The position numbers and the translations under genes were made by a program. A stretch of DNA of 21,440 nucleotides from a virus. Below are positions 6,774-21,225 of the stretch, piece by piece (the stretch's first letter is position 1; each line of letters opens with the position of its first letter). The notes under the pieces were generated by a model. That model was not told the DNA's origin. It saw only the letters and a program-made list of their open reading frames with translations, and searched no databases. The stretch is from positions 1 through 21,440 of IMG/VR virus record IMGVR_UViG_3300025870_000090; one strand, written 5' to 3'.

Positions 6774-8198
6774 ATGAAAATTGCTTTTATTTTTGGTAAA
6801 GGTATTGAAGGTTGTGGTGTAACCAAAGGTGCAAACATCTTTGAAGATTGGTTAGTATCTCAAGGCCATGAAACTATGGTTATTGATTTTGATAATAAAC
6901 AAAGCTTTGCCCGAGCTCAAAACGTAGATTGGCATGGAAACGTTTTACGCGTAGAGTCTAATCAAGAAATAGAAGATGTACCAAGTATAGTAGATGCTGT
7001 TAATACATGTGACATTGCTATTGTACACTCTTTTCCTACCCGTAAAAATGGAAAGTACATTGATAGATTTCGTCAGTTTGTAGAAGCTATTAATGATCCA
7101 ATCATTGTTGTGCATGATCATGCTATTACTAAAAATACTATTAATCGTCAGACTGGTGCCGGCGAGTTGTTTGCGTTGGCAGACATTGGTATTACACAAT
7201 CATTTGAAGGATATTCACAAGAGTGTTATTTAGCACTTGATCCTGGCCTTGAAGGTAGACTACTTGAAAATCCTATTTGGGTTCGTACTGAAGATTACGA
7301 TCAATATCGTGTTGACTATGAAGATAGAAAAAAGCACTTCATGTATATGGGCCGCATGTCAACGCTAAAAGATCCTGGAATGATTTGTCGTATTGAACCA
7401 TATTTGAAAAATGAATGGGATCTGACTTTGATGGGTTGTGAACGTTCTATTTCATCTATTGGCGATCCTGACTCTAAGACGCTTGCAACTGATCCAGCAC
7501 CATACCACAAATCTTATCAACCAAAGATTAAATTTATTGGCACAAATTCAGCCGGTGAACATTATCTACCAGCTAAAGAAAAAGAAAAAACTGGTACTAC
7601 AATTACAGCTTATGATGGATATAAGTATGATTTTGGTATGGGTCAGCTTGGTTCCTCTATGGCTGCTTGGTGCGGATATCGCCTTGGTGATCCAAAGGAA
7701 TATGGTTATCGTATGGAATATACAGTAATTGAATCATTCCTATTATCCTTGCCTGTTATTAGTAGACACTTTGCTGAAAACGCAGTATCACCTGAAGGTA
7801 AAAAGTGGGGTGAATATTATGGTCCACTTATCTCAGAAGCTACCAAGGAAGAAGAGCTTGCAGCTGAATTAAAACGTATTGCTGATAATCCTGAAGAATG
7901 GAAAGCCCGTACCAAAGCATGCCGTGAAATTGCTTATAAGTTTAATGATATTGAAGTTCTTGGTCCAAAATTCTTAGATTTTGTATTGACAAAAGGCAAA
8001 AGACATGATAAGATAGATTTTATAGATAGGATTTCAAGTTACTTCCCAAGTGCTCGTGAACGTCGCGAAAACGGAGAAATTATTATTTCAACTCCTGGAA
8101 GTGTTCTACTTGAAAAGCCTTTCACTCTTGTTGATGGAAGACAAAATGAAATTAAAGAACCCAAGCAAGTTGGTGCTACAATTGAAGGATTTTTCTAA
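6774..8198 (+). CDS. DNA alpha-glucosyltransferase homologue (T4 Agt-like)
   Basis: The 474-residue GT-B-type enzyme aligns with T4 DNA alpha-glucosyltransferase as I recall it. The N-terminal MKIAFIFGKGIEGCGVTKG matches the T4 Agt N-terminus, including EGCGVTK. VVHDHAITKNTINR matches the Agt YQHDHSVLSLRRN block, and YMGRMSTLKD and LMGCERS match the start of the C-terminal donor domain. EYTVIESFLLSLPVI with its glutamate matches EYTHLELGACGTIPV. T4 Agt transfers glucose from UDP-glucose to hydroxymethylcytosine in DNA and protects it from nucleases. This protein is about 70 residues longer, with an insertion before EYTVIESF and a C-terminal extension. The sugar used here need not be glucose, given the sugar-activation genes next door. 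A strong GAGGAGA ribosome site precedes the ATG. Confidence 0.85.
   Translation: MKIAFIFGKGIEGCGVTKGANIFEDWLVSQGHETMVIDFDNKQSFARAQNVDWHGNVLRVESNQEIEDVPSIVDAVNTCDIAIVHSFPTRKNGKYIDRFRQFVEAINDPIIVVHDHAITKNTINRQTGAGELFALADIGITQSFEGYSQECYLALDPGLEGRLLENPIWVRTEDYDQYRVDYEDRKKHFMYMGRMSTLKDPGMICRIEPYLKNEWDLTLMGCERSISSIGDPDSKTLATDPAPYHKSYQPKIKFIGTNSAGEHYLPAKEKEKTGTTITAYDGYKYDFGMGQLGSSMAAWCGYRLGDPKEYGYRMEYTVIESFLLSLPVISRHFAENAVSPEGKKWGEYYGPLISEATKEEELAAELKRIADNPEEWKARTKACREIAYKFNDIEVLGPKFLDFVLTKGKRHDKIDFIDRISSYFPSARERRENGEIIISTPGSVLLEKPFTLVDGRQNEIKEPKQVGATIEGFF
7986..8014 (+). promoter_or_regulatory. Possible internal promoter
   Basis: TTGACA (7986-7991), a 17-base spacer and TAAGAT (8009-8014, two mismatches to TATAAT), near the 3' end of the Agt homologue and about 180 bases before the HAD/kinase gene. 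It is weaker than the perfect promoters elsewhere in the window. Confidence 0.3.
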
Positions 8199-9214
8199 TG
8201 TATCATAAACGTATCGTTGTAGACTTTGACGACACCTTAGCGTTCCATGAAAACAGAAATTTTGATGACGCCATTCCTCATGACGATTTGATTAAAAAGA
8301 CAAATCAGTTATTTGATGAAGGATGGCAAATTGATATTTTTACTGCTCGTGGATCTATTTCATGTAAAACACGTGAAGAAGCACGCCTTAAATATGAAGC
8401 TGGTATTGTAGCCTGGCTTGATAAGTATAATGTTCAATATAATTCGCTTTCATTTGATAAACCATTGGCAGCTTACTATATTGATGATAAGGGTATTACT
8501 CCTGAAGCTTTTCTTGATGTTGATATTCGAGAGCTTGAAGGTGGTTTGTCTGGAACAGAAATCTTTACTGATGGTAAAGTTGTACATAAGCAAGATCCAA
8601 ATGCTCATGATACTAACACTTGGTTTAACGAAGCATTCTTTGTTGGTATTAATGTTCCAATAATTCATCGTATTGTTGGTGAAACTATTACTATGGATTA
8701 TATCGATCATGACGAACAATTCTTTATGAAAGATTTCCATGTTGCTTTGGGTATGATCCAAACACAACTTCAAAGAATGAAAGGCCTTGAAGCATTAGAT
8801 GAACTAAAATATCAATCGTATATTAATCGCATTAAAGACCATGCGGTAGCTTCAGGCCAAGTAGAATTAATTAATAATGCCGACGTATTGGAAACGTTTG
8901 ATTTAAAAAGATCGTTTTCGCACGGTGATTTTGGCATTAAGAATATGTTATTTAAAGATCATGAGCTATATTTGATTGATCCAATTTGTAATGTATTTGG
9001 CTGTACTGAACTTGACGTAGCAAAGTTCTGTGCTAGTTTGTATATCAACCAATATCATAAAGAGTATATTCTAAAATCTATTGATATCTTGGCTGCTGCA
9101 AACGATATAAATAAAACTATGTTACTAGCACTTATACGTGCTGAAATTACACGTGTATATAAGTACCATCCTGACAAATCTTTTATTATGGAATGTTTTG
9201 AAAATGTTTACTAA
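8198..9214 (+). CDS. Fusion of HAD-type phosphatase and APH/choline-kinase-fold kinase
   Basis: The 338-residue protein has two domains. Residues 1 to about 115 are HAD-like, with D9/D11 in VVDFDDTL (motif I), IFTARG (motif II) and YYIDD near 94-97 (motif IV). From about 120 onward the protein is kinase-like, with SHGDFGIKNMLF (H242, G243, D244, N249; Brenner-type catalytic loop) and LIDP (D261, metal-binding aspartate), as in aminoglycoside phosphotransferases and choline/ethanolamine kinases. A phosphatase and a kinase on one chain followed by a nucleotidyltransferase suggests stepwise making of a nucleotide-activated sugar, alditol or amino-alcohol. The fused pair recalls HldE/GmhB heptose activation or Kennedy-type CDP-ethanolamine synthesis. 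The substrate is not known. TAATG overlap couples it to the Agt homologue. Confidence 0.75.
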   Translation: MYHKRIVVDFDDTLAFHENRNFDDAIPHDDLIKKTNQLFDEGWQIDIFTARGSISCKTREEARLKYEAGIVAWLDKYNVQYNSLSFDKPLAAYYIDDKGITPEAFLDVDIRELEGGLSGTEIFTDGKVVHKQDPNAHDTNTWFNEAFFVGINVPIIHRIVGETITMDYIDHDEQFFMKDFHVALGMIQTQLQRMKGLEALDELKYQSYINRIKDHAVASGQVELINNADVLETFDLKRSFSHGDFGIKNMLFKDHELYLIDPICNVFGCTELDVAKFCASLYINQYHKEYILKSIDILAAANDINKTMLLALIRAEITRVYKYHPDKSFIMECFENVY

Positions 9215-9668
9215 CAAATCTGAAATCGCGAGAAAAGTTGGAAAGCCGGTTGATGAAATCCGGATTGGATTTACCTGTTCAACTTTTGATATGCTGCACG
9301 CTGGCCATATTGTAATGTTACAAGAGTCTAAAGAGCAGTGCGATTATCTTATTTGTGGTTTACTAACCGATCCAACTATAGATCGACCTGAAACCAAAAA
9401 CAAACCAGTACAAACTCCGTTTGAGCGTTATGTTCAATTGGCAGGGTGTCGGTTTGTTGACGAAGTAATTCCATTTAATACCGAACAAGAACTTGTCGAT
9501 ATGATTTTGACTATTCAACCACATATTAGAATTGTGGGAGAAGAGTATAAAGGTACTGATCATACAGGTGTTGGTTTATGCCCAATATATTATAACAAAC
9601 GCAAGCATTCTTTTTCGTCGTCGGACTTGAGAAATCGCGTTATCGAATCCTCGAAAGGTAACAAATGA
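9204..9668 (+). CDS. Cytidylyltransferase-like nucleotidyltransferase
   Basis: The 154-residue protein has the HxGH-type nucleotidyltransferase core: GFTCSTFDMLHAGHIVML (HAGH motif, nucleotide binding) and the C-terminal FSSSDLRNRV, equivalent to the I-S-S-T/S-x-x-R-x-R signature. The family includes glycerol-3-phosphate cytidylyltransferase, phosphoethanolamine cytidylyltransferase and HldE-type heptose adenylyltransferase; the nucleotide cannot be decided here. The frame is open further upstream, but the ATG at 9204 gives a full-length family match and only an 11-base overlap with the kinase gene. It presumably activates the phosphorylated product of that enzyme. It overlaps the methyltransferase gene downstream as ATGA. 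Confidence 0.8.
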   Translation: MFTNKSEIARKVGKPVDEIRIGFTCSTFDMLHAGHIVMLQESKEQCDYLICGLLTDPTIDRPETKNKPVQTPFERYVQLAGCRFVDEVIPFNTEQELVDMILTIQPHIRIVGEEYKGTDHTGVGLCPIYYNKRKHSFSSSDLRNRVIESSKGNK

Positions 9669-10870
9669 CCATTACTCATGCATCTATAGTTCCACTTATT
9701 GGCGGTGAAACCATTGGCTCGGCAAATGCCTTTGGTGCACCTCCAATTCATTTTATGTCGTACGAAGCTTTTGCTGCTAATGACAGTCACATTTTAAATT
9801 ACTACGATAATCAAATTCCTTATTATGTTTTAGATAAAGATATGGCGCCACCATTAAATGAAAGAGCTGATGTTGTATCTTCAGTTTGTCCATGTGCTGG
9901 ATTATCAACCATGTCGATGGGTTATGGTGACGACAATCCAAACAATCAATGGATGAAAGAAACAGCTAATTATATCCTTGGCGAATATAAACCAAAAGTA
10001 TTTTGGGGAGAGAATGCTCCAGGATTTGCTGGTAAAATTGGTAAAACAGTTCGTGAAGAATTGAGAAGCATTGGTAAGAAAAACGGATATACAATGTCTG
10101 TATATAGAACTAAATCCCTATTACATGGATCGCCGCAGGTTCGTGAGAGATCATTCTATTTTTTCTGGAAAGGTAATAGAACACCGCTTCTAGGTTACTT
10201 CAATAAACCTCATACACCCATTGAAGAAGTAATCCGTGGAGTTAAATCTAACTTCCAAACTGATGTAATCAATCATAAAAAGAAACCAACAGACAATCCA
10301 TACTATAAGTTCATCTTAGAACATATTCATGGTGGACGTTCTCATAAAGAACACGCGGCTTTGATTGAACCAACATCAGCTCGTGGTGCTTGTGTTTATA
10401 GTTATATTGAACAGCAAGGCTATAGTTATTTACAAGTAGCTGATTGGATGGCCGAAAATGGTTTTGAACGTGAAGTAGAAAAGTGTAAATACAAACATGC
10501 TAAACTTGAATCAGGTAAAAGCATTATGCGACGTGGTGTAACAATTCCAAAAGATCGTATTGGAGCCTTTGTTGGTCACTATCCTTTAATGCTTGCGCAT
10601 CCTGATGAAGATCGCTTTATTAATTATCGTGAAGCTATGACAATCATGGGATTGCCTGAAGATTTTGAGTTAGTAGATGCTAACCCAAGAAATGCTAATC
10701 ATATTTGTCAGAATGTTCCAGTACAAACTGCGACTGACATGGCAACTGAAGTTAAAAAATATTTGAATAATGAGTTAATAACCGTTGACACGGACTACAT
10801 TATGCAGTATAATCATAGACAAGAAGCGCAATACACCGAACGCGGTGCAACTTTAGAGGCATTTTTATGA
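9665..10870 (+). CDS. C5-cytosine DNA methyltransferase homologue
   Basis: The 401-residue protein carries most of the C5-methyltransferase motifs in order. VCPCAGLS holds the catalytic C77 (motif IV, with A in place of the usual Q). FWGENAPG is the motif VI ENV-type site, and GSPQVRERSFYFF the motif VIII Q-x-R-x-R. INYREAMTIMGLPEDF and QNVPVQTATDMATEV are the C-terminal motifs IX-X. Motif I is diverged (LIGGETIG). The region between motifs VIII and IX is the likely target-recognition part. Enzymes of this family make 5-methylcytosine; in a phage with dCMP hydroxymethylase the cytosines may already be modified, so its true substrate is open. It is joined by ATGA overlaps to both neighbours. 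A perfect promoter sits in its last 90 bases. Confidence 0.8.
   Translation: MTITHASIVPLIGGETIGSANAFGAPPIHFMSYEAFAANDSHILNYYDNQIPYYVLDKDMAPPLNERADVVSSVCPCAGLSTMSMGYGDDNPNNQWMKETANYILGEYKPKVFWGENAPGFAGKIGKTVREELRSIGKKNGYTMSVYRTKSLLHGSPQVRERSFYFFWKGNRTPLLGYFNKPHTPIEEVIRGVKSNFQTDVINHKKKPTDNPYYKFILEHIHGGRSHKEHAALIEPTSARGACVYSYIEQQGYSYLQVADWMAENGFEREVEKCKYKHAKLESGKSIMRRGVTIPKDRIGAFVGHYPLMLAHPDEDRFINYREAMTIMGLPEDFELVDANPRNANHICQNVPVQTATDMATEVKKYLNNELITVDTDYIMQYNHRQEAQYTERGATLEAFL
10785..10813 (+). promoter_or_regulatory. Perfect sigma-70 promoter inside the methyltransferase gene
   Basis: TTGACA (10785-10790), 17 bases, TATAAT (10808-10813). The dexA ATG is at 10867, 54 bases downstream, so exonuclease and GT-A expression can be independent of the long upstream transcript. 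Confidence 0.7.
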
Positions 10871-16048: not shown

Positions 16049-16492
16049 ATGAATACACGTAGACTAGACACAACTCTGCTTAACGATCCATTCTTCATCG
16101 GCTTTGACCGTATGGTAGATAGGATGAAAACAGCAACGCCAGGTCAAGGCAATTACCCTCCATACAACATTGTTAAAACAGGCGAAGATAGCTATGAACT
16201 ACAATTAGCTATTGCTGGTTTTAAGTATGAAGATTTAGAAATCATGTTGAAAGATGGTGAGCTTAGTATCACTGGCAAACATCCCGCTCCAAGTGAAGTT
16301 GATTATATCCACAAAGGTATTTCAACACGAGGTTTTGAGCGTAGATTTACTTTGATGGATTCAATCGTCGTTAATGGTGCTGATCTTTCAGACGGAATTT
16401 TGACAGTTAAATTAGAAAATGTAATTCCTGAAGAAAAGAAACCACGTAAGATTGAAATCAATACTAGTAATCCTGAATTACTAAACGGTTAA
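16049..16492 (+). CDS. Small heat-shock protein (Hsp20/alpha-crystallin family)
   Basis: The 147-residue protein has the IbpA-like pattern: an N-terminal LNDPFFIGFDRMVDRM, then an alpha-crystallin domain (about 38-130) with YELQLAIAGFKYEDLEI, LSITGKH, RGFERRFTL and ADLSDGILTVKLENVIPEEKKP. An I-E-I C-terminal motif in PRKIEIN follows, used for oligomer assembly. It is an ATP-independent holdase in the cytosol. Such genes are widespread in marine T4-like phages and may aid assembly of phage proteins. AAAGGAGAT precedes the ATG at a good distance. Hairpins flank it on both sides. Confidence 0.9.
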   Translation: MNTRRLDTTLLNDPFFIGFDRMVDRMKTATPGQGNYPPYNIVKTGEDSYELQLAIAGFKYEDLEIMLKDGELSITGKHPAPSEVDYIHKGISTRGFERRFTLMDSIVVNGADLSDGILTVKLENVIPEEKKPRKIEINTSNPELLNG

Positions 16493-17583: not shown

Positions 17584-17798
17584 AACCCAATAACAAATTT
17601 GATCTTTCTGTAAGAGACATTGAAGTTATTGAATCAGCGCTAAGAGCAAAGGCTGGCCGAAGAGGTTTGGCTATTGCTCAAGGCGAAGCATCAGACGAGT
17701 CTCGTGCTGAAATGCATGAGATACAGGAATTGCTTGGACGTATTCACAACCAAAAAAATTGGTATCGTCCAAGTGATAAGTGGGTAGGTGGAGGATGA
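17580..17798 (+). CDS. Hypothetical 72-residue protein
   Basis: A helical, charged protein (SVRDIEVIESALRAKAGRRG, then SRAEMHEIQELLGRIHNQ). It could fold as a helical hairpin. No family recognised. It starts as ATGA on the preceding stop. Confidence 0.6.
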   Translation: MKPNNKFDLSVRDIEVIESALRAKAGRRGLAIAQGEASDESRAEMHEIQELLGRIHNQKNWYRPSDKWVGGG

Positions 17799-17836
17799 AC
17801 CTTTGCTGCCCTTTTAACACACACAGGAGAACTAAA

Positions 17837-18046
17837 ATGTTTAATGACTTTACAACCAACTACTTTATCGACCACGTACAATCAACTAAGAAAACAATGG
17901 TTGATACATTGGTCAAAGACGAAAAATTGTCTGCACCATTACATGCTTTTATTGAAGCTCAAACAGCTTTCTCAAAAGTTGCAGTAAAATCAATGACTGA
18001 ATTTATGAATGCAACTGGTGAAACCGCAGCAAAGGTAATGAAATAA
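17837..18046 (+). CDS. Phasin-like hypothetical protein (69 residues)
   Basis: A short amphipathic helical protein: FIDHVQSTKKTMVDTLVKD, AFIEAQTAFSKVAVKSM, FMNATGETAAKVMK. The pattern resembles phasin-type proteins, but the similarity is loose. The start at 17837 has ACAGGAGAA upstream. An in-frame ATG at 17795 forms ATGA with the preceding stop and would add 14 residues (MNLCCPFNTHRRTK) that do not look like the family core. The stop couples to the next gene (TAATG). Confidence 0.65.
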   Translation: MFNDFTTNYFIDHVQSTKKTMVDTLVKDEKLSAPLHAFIEAQTAFSKVAVKSMTEFMNATGETAAKVMK

Positions 18047-18264
18047 TGAGTAAGAACCCTTTTGAGATTCGTGCTGATATGTTGCAAATGGCTAAAGAGT
18101 ATATGGATCAAATCCACGAAACTAACCATATCTATGCAGCTAAAATGATGGAATTAGGACAAATTCAATTTGAAGAATATCAAAAGATGACTGAGCTATA
18201 TTCAGTTGAGGAACTTACGAAAAAAGCTACAGAAATGTATTCGTTTGTTTCAAATAAAGACTAA
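18046..18264 (+). CDS. Hypothetical helical protein (72 residues)
   Basis: Begins MSKNPFEIRADMLQMAKEYM and ends KKATEMYSFVSNKD; helical throughout. It resembles the preceding phasin-like protein in style and the two are coupled by TAATG, so they may form a pair. Small proteins with an NPF-x-IR start and YxFVSxKD end seem familiar from marine T4-like phages; no function is known to me. It is the last gene before the strong terminator. Confidence 0.65.
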   Translation: MSKNPFEIRADMLQMAKEYMDQIHETNHIYAAKMMELGQIQFEEYQKMTELYSVEELTKKATEMYSFVSNKD

Positions 18265-18266
18265 TT

Positions 18267-18294
18267 AAAGGGGATCTTCGGGTCCCCTTTTTTT
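18267..18294 (+). terminator. Strong terminator between convergent operons
   Basis: A 10-bp stem, AAAGGGGATC (18267-18276) with GGTCCCCTTT (18281-18290), closes a TTCG tetraloop and runs into a T-tract of seven. It ends the plus-strand small-gene operon and overlaps the stop of the minus-strand tail gene. On the minus strand the T-run is only three bases, so termination there would be weaker. Confidence 0.9.
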
Positions 18295-20362
18295 ATCTTG
18301 GACCAGCAAGGCCGTTTGTTAATCCAATTTCGCGCATTACACCGCCACCACCGCCTCCTGCTGAAACGTTAGTCATTGCAACTTGTTTATTGCCTTCTGT
18401 AATATTAAAAGATTGAGGTGCAATAGTAGTTGGCTGTATTGTTATAATCTGGCCATAGCCACTACCTGCTCCATCTTCTATGGTAGTAAGGTTAGGTCTT
18501 TCATTCTGACCTTGAACATAAGCTCTACCATTGCGATCAGTAAACATTAAATTTCCGGCTGAGTTTCTAACATAATTTCCTCTAAAATATGGACTATCAG
18601 ATAATCTAACATCAGCACCTGTATTATAATTTTGACCTAGGGATTGACTAGCAAAATTACCATCTAAAGCTTCGCGCATTCCGCCAGGACGACCACCTCC
18701 AGCGATATATTCTTGCTCTGCAGTAATTGCTGATCTTTGGTCTTCTGGTAACGCGTCAAAAGTATCACGAGCTTGTCTTTCTTTATCAGACATCCAGTCT
18801 TCGTAGGCCTGGTGTAATTCTTCTCCAATACCTTCCATAATTTCAACATGTGCTTCGTTATCAGGATTAAACGACTCATTAGTAACAGCAAAGAAAATTT
18901 CAGTTGCAACACTACCAATATCAATAGCAGTTCCTGAAATTGTAGGTAAAGGAATAGAAGTTACTTGTAGTGCGGCTGATGTGAAATCTCCTTTTGCAAA
19001 ATTCCATACTGCATATCCAAGCGATGCAACAGCCCCAACAATTGGAACACCCATAAGAATAACTTTACCAATTTTATTCCGAGCCATTCTAGCTATAAGG
19101 CCTCTTTTTTCAGTTAATACTAATCGCCCTGCATTTCTTCTCGCTTCGGCTAATCCAGCGTCACCCTGTCTAGGACCTCGGTTTCTAGGGCCATCATATG
19201 CTGAAGGTGGCCGCGGTGTTGATGTGTCTACATTAGGAAGTCCATCTCTTCCAAAACCAGCAGCTTGAAGCCTCGATTGTGCATCAGCGTTACGAATATA
19301 TCTACCGTTAGCGTCCATGTCTTGGTATCTAAAATTATCCGGTCCAATTTGAGTTACTCTTAAATTAGGAGCTGGAGCTACAGGTTTATCTGGAACATAG
19401 TCAACGCCAGCTGGTCTAAAGTTAGTTCTAAGGTTTGGATCTGAGGCTCTTAATCTCGCTCTCTCTTCTGGGGTCATATTGTCTACTGGATTAGATCGGT
19501 TTGCTGGGTTGGTCGCGCCTGCTCTTGCTCTAACTTCTGCATCTAGGTCAGGATCTCCAGAAAATATTCTTCGTAAAACTTCTCCAGTAACACCACCTGC
19601 TAAAAGTCTTCTAAAGAATCCTCTTCGGCCGGGAGTGCCGCCGCCGGGCCTATTACGATTCATAAGAGCTAAAGCTGTTCTCATAGTTAGGTTATATGCT
19701 TGAAGAGCACCAATAGACAATAAAACTGTTTTTGCTATGTCTAACCAACCAATATTAGTAATTGTATCTAAGCTTGCTTTAAGACTTGCTAATGACTCTC
19801 CAATTCCATCTAAAGAAGCTTGAAGGTTGGAAAACGTTAGTGGTAAAGTTGAAAAATCAATTCCACCTAATCCTTTTGCCATTGATCCTAAGTTGGTTTC
19901 AAATGCTGTCCAGCCGCCATTTGTTTTTTCATCAACAAATCCTTTAAGAAGATTGTACCCTACAAACAATCCCGCAGCGCCTAGAGCAAAGTTCTTTAAA
20001 GAAAATCCTGATGCAATAGAAGCTGCTATATTATCAATTTTTTTATCAGTTTCTGCTTTAGCTGCAGCATCATTGGCTTTTGATTCAGGTTCTAATGTAG
20101 GTTTTTGCGCCTGTCCTCCAAGTTCATCAAACTGTTCACTAGTTCTTCCTCTTTCAACCGCTTCTTGTTGCAGACCGAGCTGGGCTTGCATCATTTCTGT
20201 TTGCATTTTAATATTGCTATTAATAGAAGTAAACAATCCATCAAATTTTTCTAATTTGATGTTCATAGACTTAATAGAATTAGTCCCAGTATTTCTAATG
20301 AGATCACCTTCTGATTTTAAGCGCTCTATAATCGCTTTTGTTTCTTCTGATAATGAAGCCAT
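18293..20362 (-). CDS. Large tail protein, putative tape measure or baseplate hub
   Basis: The 689-residue protein has a predicted helical N-terminus (1-75, including LEKFDGLFTSINSNIKMQTEMM) and hydrophobic segments near 124-143, 206-233 and 430-460. A low-complexity Arg/Pro/Asp-rich middle runs from about 270 to 415, and the C-terminus contains a run of five glycines. Helices plus membrane-like segments, directly downstream of gp26 and its frameshift extension, fit the tail tape-measure position known from other tailed phages (chaperone, then tape measure). T4 gp29 (590 residues) is the functional counterpart, but I cannot show direct homology. Its ATG follows the stop of the frameshift product with no gap, so translation is probably coupled. 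Confidence 0.5.
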   Translation of the reverse strand: MASLSEETKAIIERLKSEGDLIRNTGTNSIKSMNIKLEKFDGLFTSINSNIKMQTEMMQAQLGLQQEAVERGRTSEQFDELGGQAQKPTLEPESKANDAAAKAETDKKIDNIAASIASGFSLKNFALGAAGLFVGYNLLKGFVDEKTNGGWTAFETNLGSMAKGLGGIDFSTLPLTFSNLQASLDGIGESLASLKASLDTITNIGWLDIAKTVLLSIGALQAYNLTMRTALALMNRNRPGGGTPGRRGFFRRLLAGGVTGEVLRRIFSGDPDLDAEVRARAGATNPANRSNPVDNMTPEERARLRASDPNLRTNFRPAGVDYVPDKPVAPAPNLRVTQIGPDNFRYQDMDANGRYIRNADAQSRLQAAGFGRDGLPNVDTSTPRPPSAYDGPRNRGPRQGDAGLAEARRNAGRLVLTEKRGLIARMARNKIGKVILMGVPIVGAVASLGYAVWNFAKGDFTSAALQVTSIPLPTISGTAIDIGSVATEIFFAVTNESFNPDNEAHVEIMEGIGEELHQAYEDWMSDKERQARDTFDALPEDQRSAITAEQEYIAGGGRPGGMREALDGNFASQSLGQNYNTGADVRLSDSPYFRGNYVRNSAGNLMFTDRNGRAYVQGQNERPNLTTIEDGAGSGYGQIITIQPTTIAPQSFNITEGNKQVAMTNVSAGGGGGGVMREIGLTNGLAGPR

Positions 20363-20533
20363 TTACTTGTTCTCGCTTTGTTTTTCTAAATAATCGCTCA
20401 ACATACTAAAATATAAATCTCTTTCATAAGGTAACATATTTTCTATCTCAGTTATAGAATATTTATGGTGCTGTGCCATTGCAAATATAATCCTATAATA
20501 ATCTTTCAAGGATATATGACACAGCGCTAGGAA
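20363..20533 (-). CDS. -1 frameshift extension of gp26 (putative tail chaperone fusion)
   Basis: A 56-codon open stretch in the -1 frame runs from the slippery T-run before the gp26 stop to a TAA touching the tape-measure ATG. Its product (FLALCHISLKDYYRII, then SITEIENMLPYERDLYFSML) is protein-like and ends SDYLEKQ. It has no start of its own at the beginning; the first ATG is 18 codons in, with a poorly spaced AGGA. Slippage on T-TTT-TTT would fuse it to gp26 residues 1-231, giving about 287 residues, as in the lambda G/GT pair of tape-measure chaperones. Internal initiation at 20477-20479 is an alternative. Confidence 0.65.
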   Translation of the reverse strand, partial: FLALCHISLKDYYRIIFAMAQHHKYSITEIENMLPYERDLYFSMLSDYLEKQSENK

Positions 20534-21225
20534 AAAAAACTTCGAATTCCTTCTACCACAAATGTCTTATCATCACCATTGTTATTTTTATAATGCATTT
20601 CATGTCTAAGCTTTGGCATTGTTTCAAAGAATCTTTGAATGCCTTTTACCACATCGCCTGAAACGTCTTCCATAAATTGGTTGACTTCGTTTTCTGTATA
20701 GTTTTTAAATTCAAATACCTCATCTGCCGAAGCAACTTTGTCTAAACAAGATATCATGATAAAATAGCTTGCCAATGGATCGTCAGCTGTAAAAGTTGTA
20801 ATTTTAAGAAATTCGTCAATTGTTGGATATTTTAAATATAAAATGTAGTCGTCATTAATTTTTACTTCGTTAGTATGATCTTTGTCTGTAGTAAGCTGAA
20901 CTTTATCAAGATCTAACTCAAGGGAAACTTTTTCTTCTGTATCAGGATCTAGGATATTAAAAGTAATACCATTATCTACAGATCTAGATCTTAAAGTAAG
21001 TAGCAAATATTCTAAATCAAACATAGGTAATTTTGTTGCGTCAATTTCAAAACAACAATTTGATACAACTTGTTTAATAGCTGTAATTTGTTGTGACACA
21101 TCATCAGACTCTGCTGCAACTAAAAGTATTTTTTCTTCTTTAACAGTAAAAGGTCTATATTTAATTGTTTCTTTGCTTGATGGTAAAATTAGTTCAAAAA
21201 GTGGTAAATCAATCTTAGGCAGCAT
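20527..21225 (-). CDS. 26: Baseplate hub assembly protein (T4 gp26 family)
   Basis: The 232-residue protein resembles the T4 baseplate family that includes gp26. It has an N-terminal LPLFELILPSSKETIKYRPF, then TVKEEKILLVAAESDD, IKQVVSNCCFE, DLEYLLLTLRSRSVD and a C-terminal helical region. These proteins help assemble the tail hub. In T4 gp26 is 208 residues and lies next to gp51, the hub assembly catalyst. GGAGAAATAAATT precedes the ATG. The last codons contain eight consecutive T residues directly before the stop (see the frameshift extension). Family call fairly firm; exact role by analogy. Confidence 0.8.
   Translation of the reverse strand: MLPKIDLPLFELILPSSKETIKYRPFTVKEEKILLVAAESDDVSQQITAIKQVVSNCCFEIDATKLPMFDLEYLLLTLRSRSVDNGITFNILDPDTEEKVSLELDLDKVQLTTDKDHTNEVKINDDYILYLKYPTIDEFLKITTFTADDPLASYFIMISCLDKVASADEVFEFKNYTENEVNQFMEDVSGDVVKGIQRFFETMPKLRHEMHYKNNNGDDKTFVVEGIRSFFS
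20532..20539 (-). promoter_or_regulatory. Slippery T8 frameshift site at the end of gene 26
   Basis: Eight T residues (minus strand) give T-TTT-TTT in the reading phase, followed by TCC-TAG. The stop is two codons after the slip point. Both tRNAs can re-pair fully after a -1 shift. Confidence 0.6.

Follow-up and report, generated by a model that had tools for sequence, protein, structure and literature searches.

The minus strand of the 21.4-kb fragment of a marine T4-like virus analysed here (referred to as the window) carries a homologue of gp26 followed, in the -1 frame, by a homologue of gp51, and the features of this locus (Table 1) are very probably those of a -1 frameshift of the lambda G/GT type in a tail assembly chaperone (TAC) gene with a downstream RNA stimulator. 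A -1 frameshift at the end of gene 26 that feeds a chaperone-like extension had been proposed in the first-pass annotation of this DNA, and the proposal is supported: the extension is homologous to gp51; heptamer, phase and open frame are kept over very divergent phages; the extension evolves as a protein; and T4 gp51 is a fusion of the same two parts. We infer the following course of translation, product ratio included: Most ribosomes would halt at the TAG codon and release gp26 of 232 amino acids. In a minority of ribosomes, the tRNA-Phe molecules occupying the P and A sites would slip back by one base on T TTT TTT, and reading would go on for 56 more codons, resulting in a gp26-gp51 fusion of about 287 amino acids. 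The 9-bp stem, which lies within the coding sequence of the extension, would probably make slipping more frequent by keeping the ribosome on the heptamer. The expected role of both chaperone forms is to coat the tape-measure protein and to recruit tail-tube or hub subunits.

Table 1. Features of the gp26-gp51 locus in the window.
Feature	Position	Strand	Basis and remarks
gp26 homologue (short form, TAC-N), 232 aa	20527..21225	-	PF12322 and phrog_150; includes TAG stop 20527-20529
Slippery heptamer T TTT TTT	20533..20539	-	sequence; inside T8 20532-20539
-1 frame extension, gp51 homologue (TAC-C), 56 codons	20366..20533	-	phrog_634, dN/dS; TAA stop 20363-20365
Shine-Dalgarno-like GAAGG, 9 nt 5' of heptamer	20549..20553	-	sequence, GARGG in most relatives; weak
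Stem 5' arm GCTGTGTCA, 7 nt after heptamer	20517..20525	-	fold and conservation analyses
Stem 3' arm TGGCACAGC	20470..20478	-	fold and conservation analyses
689-aa ORF, start abuts extension stop (TAAATG)	18293..20362	-	tape-measure candidate by position

The 3' end of gp26 reads ATT CGA AGT TTT TTT TCC TAG on the minus strand, the T run standing in the context AG TTTTTTTT CC TAG. The eight T residues noticed in the first-pass annotation are thus present, but they do not lie directly before the stop codon: the two C residues of a TCC codon intervene. After the slip, the -1 frame continues as TTC CTA GCG ... AAG TAA, and its description as open for 56 codons up to the next ATG is exact, since the TAA codon directly abuts the ATG (20362) of the 689-aa ORF. 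A given frame stayed open over this stretch in only 72 of 20,000 dinucleotide shuffles; as the arrangement also recurs in all but one of the 114 distinct junctions from related loci, it is not due to chance.

Both parts of the presumed fusion have clear relatives. The gp26 homologue matches the Pfam profile PF12322 (E=4e-54, 184 bits at a cut-off of 24.5) and phrog_150, a "baseplate hub" family (E=6e-56), and its predicted structure (pLDDT 87.6) resembles other phage "baseplate hub" proteins. A fold search of the PDB with this predicted structure gave no significant match, the HK97 chaperone 2ob9 appearing at rank 24 (E=2.1, probability 0.14), and a profile search of the PDB sequences had no match. 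The extension matches phrog_634, the "baseplate hub assembly catalyst" or gp51 family (E=6.7e-22). Its median dN/dS is about 0.14 (pairwise, NG86), a rough value given that the median dS is above 1; judging from these substitutions, the extension is under purifying selection and evolves as a protein. None of the annotated stretches that we fetched has the joined gp26-gp51 product annotated; annotators list the gp51 extension as a separate CDS. A gp51-like extension in the Aeromonas phage AS-yj (L093:3206-3372), open in the -1 frame after TTTTTTC, is wholly unannotated.

The homologues give a consistent picture. A scan of viral contigs yielded 80 loci at 58-99% identity, and further scans together with annotated phages raised the set to 215 loci with 135 distinct junctions. 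Among these, 114 distinct junctions are Kyanoviridae-like, including those of Caulobacter phage Cr30 and Nitratidesulfovibrio phage SRB7757. The comparison of homologues that had been recommended for this locus showed a canonical T TTT TT[T/C] in the gp26 frame at the very end of the gene in 113 of these 114 marine and cyanophage-related junctions, with the same -1 phase and an open extension; the sole exception (L075) has G TTT TTT. Heptamer and -1 extension recur beyond this group in KVP40-like Vibrio phages, Aeromonas AS-yj, Stenotrophomonas BUCT608 and Agrobacterium OLIVR6. The codon TTT was the first codon in all 73 representatives, which carries no evidential weight because the set had been selected for the heptamer. 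Moreover, the phase relation alone is no proof of frameshifting, since in Ackermannviridae and in some Vibrio and Pseudomonas phages the extension lies in the -1 phase without a canonical heptamer. Kuttervirus-like loci (L102-L116) and Limestonevirus loci (L097, L099-L101) have a -1 extension after gp26 and the non-canonical sequence ATT TTC ATT TAA; the Limestonevirus junction is an overlapping TAATG, and the Kuttervirus-like loci are without ATG or GTG at the start of the extension. Most relatives with the heptamer also have GARGG upstream of it, a motif not separable from a conserved Gly codon. An upstream stimulator resembling a Shine-Dalgarno sequence is therefore a weak proposal: GARGG encodes conserved residues, and the Gly is also present in T4 gp26, which is made without frameshifting.

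A one-base homopolymer sequencing error, named in the first-pass annotation as a possible artefact, is ruled out: two contigs of 99% identity (L005 and L006), which come from other metagenomes, have the identical T8, and the relatives keep the same phase with T7 or T6C at the slip site. It is quite improbable that gp51 is a separate short protein, whose translation would restart at the gp26 stop after termination or begin at an internal ATG, even though annotators call a separate CDS and an ATG or GTG lies no more than 12 nt from the stop in 56 of the 114 junctions. The other 58, among them that of the window with the codons CTA GCG CTG, have no such codon near the stop, and with about half of the junctions lacking a start we rejected termination-reinitiation as a general mechanism. 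The window does contain an internal ATG in the frame of the extension, 50 nt after the beginning of the stop codon; initiation there would, however, lose the conserved LCHISLKDYY part, and the codon is TTG or CTG in many relatives. In many relatives the -1 frame closes 10-13 nt before the gp26 stop, which leaves no room for a start of the extension ahead of the slip site. Homologues that dispense with the slippery site in favour of a separate start, the other case held to speak against frameshifting, do not form a pattern here, as no separate start is conserved. Finally, the conservation of the heptamer far exceeds what the coding of gp26 needs.

Slippage of the RNA polymerase rather than of the ribosome, giving mRNAs of altered length that encode the fusion, is hardly credible. 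The eight T residues in the window would suit it, but most relatives have only six or seven (TTTTTTC or TTTTTTT), a length that is probably too short for efficient polymerase slippage, whereas a slip of tRNA-Phe works on all of these sequences. An RNA stem at a fixed spacing likewise fits a ribosomal mechanism.

This stem brings us back to ribosomal frameshifting and to the way it might be controlled. In the group of the window, the two arms listed in Table 1 can form a 9-bp stem in the mRNA, with a constant spacer of exactly 7 nt between the heptamer and the 5' arm, and all nine positions are paired in 37 of the 43 distinct sequences of this group. When the partner is slid, pairing drops from 0.90 to at most 0.64. 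Folding in 50-nt windows hid this long-range stem in the group of the window; folding in 70-nt windows revealed it, with a mean z of -3.56 at +2 nt and values of about 0 elsewhere, and 97% of 34 representatives were below -1.5. For the sequence of the window alone, z is modest (-1.84). The consensus fold reaches -12.6 as compared to -0.1 +/- 0.5 for column shuffles. Cyanophages have other hairpins at the same position, such as GTATGGCTCA/TGAGTCATAC and GTTCTATAAT/TTATAGAAC, with a mean z of -2.5.

Could the stem be a mere by-product of conserved amino acids, with the heptamer alone being enough for the frameshift? Both arms do encode conserved residues (LCH and MAQHH), and sequences obtained by resampling synonymous codons already pair at 7.01 of the nine positions on average (500 nulls, sd 0.15, maximum 7.44). 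We nevertheless regard this explanation as unlikely: the observed mean of 8.74 of 9 lies beyond all 500 nulls, and pair 5 is A-T in 12 sequences and T-A or T-G in 28, the third base of an Ala codon tracking a switch between Cys and Ser. Moreover, by inspection, one relative (L063) still pairs perfectly over 10 bp, in a register that is shifted, and the hairpins at the same place in other clades are unrelated. On the best tree, the 5' base of the covarying pair changed at least six times; well-supported branches provide one independent contrast, the tree being poorly resolved and the test underpowered. The conserved stem, lying as it does shortly downstream of the slip site, looks like a further control element, and one that is probably undescribed: we found no description of it in the literature, where the study of Vladimirov et al. 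2022 was accessible through the papers citing it.

The comparison with T4 is instructive for the function of the fusion. The first-pass annotation was right that T4 gp26 and gp51 are encoded by separate genes, which are also divergent, but this picture is incomplete, since T4 gp51 holds a whole gp26-like domain: Its residues 1-201 match PF12322 (E=4e-52), its residues 147-246 match phrog_634, and the two T4 proteins align with each other (E=2e-6). From these matches, T4 gp51 is a full gp26 paralogue plus extension, i.e. a hard-wired fusion, and this strongly, if indirectly, supports the fusion as the functional long form. Relatives of T4 gp51 were found in 1,339 phage records, with the similarity covering at least 80% of the gp51 length in 1,334. 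The same two protein families are thus involved at both loci; T4 gp51, however, has its own gp26-like domain and its own gene, whereas the extension in the window directly follows gp26 in the -1 frame. The T4 arrangement with a long form from its own gene, which marks the T4 subgroup rather than the family, is absent from the window. A short and a long product would accordingly come from two paralogous genes in the T4 lineage and from one frameshifting gene in the virus of the window.

The 689-aa ORF downstream of the extension has tblastn similarity in 75 fetched loci and gave no informative family match in Pfam and PHROG profile searches. By position only, it is a candidate for the tape measure; the gene annotated as tape measure in Cr30 and HTVC008M lies two genes downstream of gp51. 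Elsewhere in the window, neighbouring genes on the plus strand (6774-10870) encode a DNA alpha-glucosyltransferase-like protein (PF11440), a protein without a Pfam match, a cytidylyltransferase-like protein and a C-5 cytosine methylase, and these genes are possibly a DNA hypermodification cluster. The plus strand also encodes a phage small heat-shock protein (HSP20, E=4e-19; 16049-16492), adjoining an ORF that is dUTPase-like by eye, and two small adjoining ORFs without a Pfam match that are phasin-like by eye (17780-18264). On the minus strand, there is a gene for a protein of the nitroreductase family (PF00881, E=6.5e-6; 1804-2418).

With respect to known systems, the likeness of the window to lambda G/GT is one of arrangement: a short chaperone precedes a large tail gene and is prolonged by a -1 extension at a slippery heptamer, and in the window the heptamer indeed sits among the last codons of the first ORF with the -1 extension open behind it. 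The lambda heptamer is G GGA AAG as compared to T TTT TTT in the window, and the conserved downstream stem sets the locus apart from lambda G/GT. Vladimirov, Gautam and Davidson are said to have found in 2022 frameshifting to be conserved across several groups of T4-like phages, T4 itself using genes 26 and 51. PMC10885494, citing Vladimirov, Gautam & Davidson 2022 (Virology 566:9-15), describes T4-like phages in which a short TAC gene is accompanied by a longer gene for a fusion, and PMC12846349, citing the same work, mentions poly-T -1 frameshift signals in the TAC-N genes of T4-like phages. A 2016 review (PMC5009743) still listed T4 as an exception. The core frameshift interpretation is already published, and the window is a new, uncultured member. 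The TAC locus of the Vandenendeviridae/Andersonviridae, exemplified by phage Adele (PMC12846349), resembles that of the window in having a T-rich slip site where TAC-N ends and a -1 frame that is open in all genomes, but differs in the phage families and in the motif GTTTTT; the accessible part of that paper mentions no downstream structure.

We favour, with some reservation, the idea that marine phages of the T4 type use an RNA stem at a fixed distance from the slip site to adjust the proportion of short and long chaperone, that stems of differing sequence and geometry arose at the same place in different clades, and that the T4 lineage uses paralogous genes instead. The frameshift would correct the annotation of a locus conserved in cyanophages and pelagiphages, where current annotations give gp51 as a free-standing mini-gene or miss it. 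The conserved stem lends itself readily to testing how frameshift ratios are set in phages, and frameshifting as against gene duplication amounts to a natural experiment.
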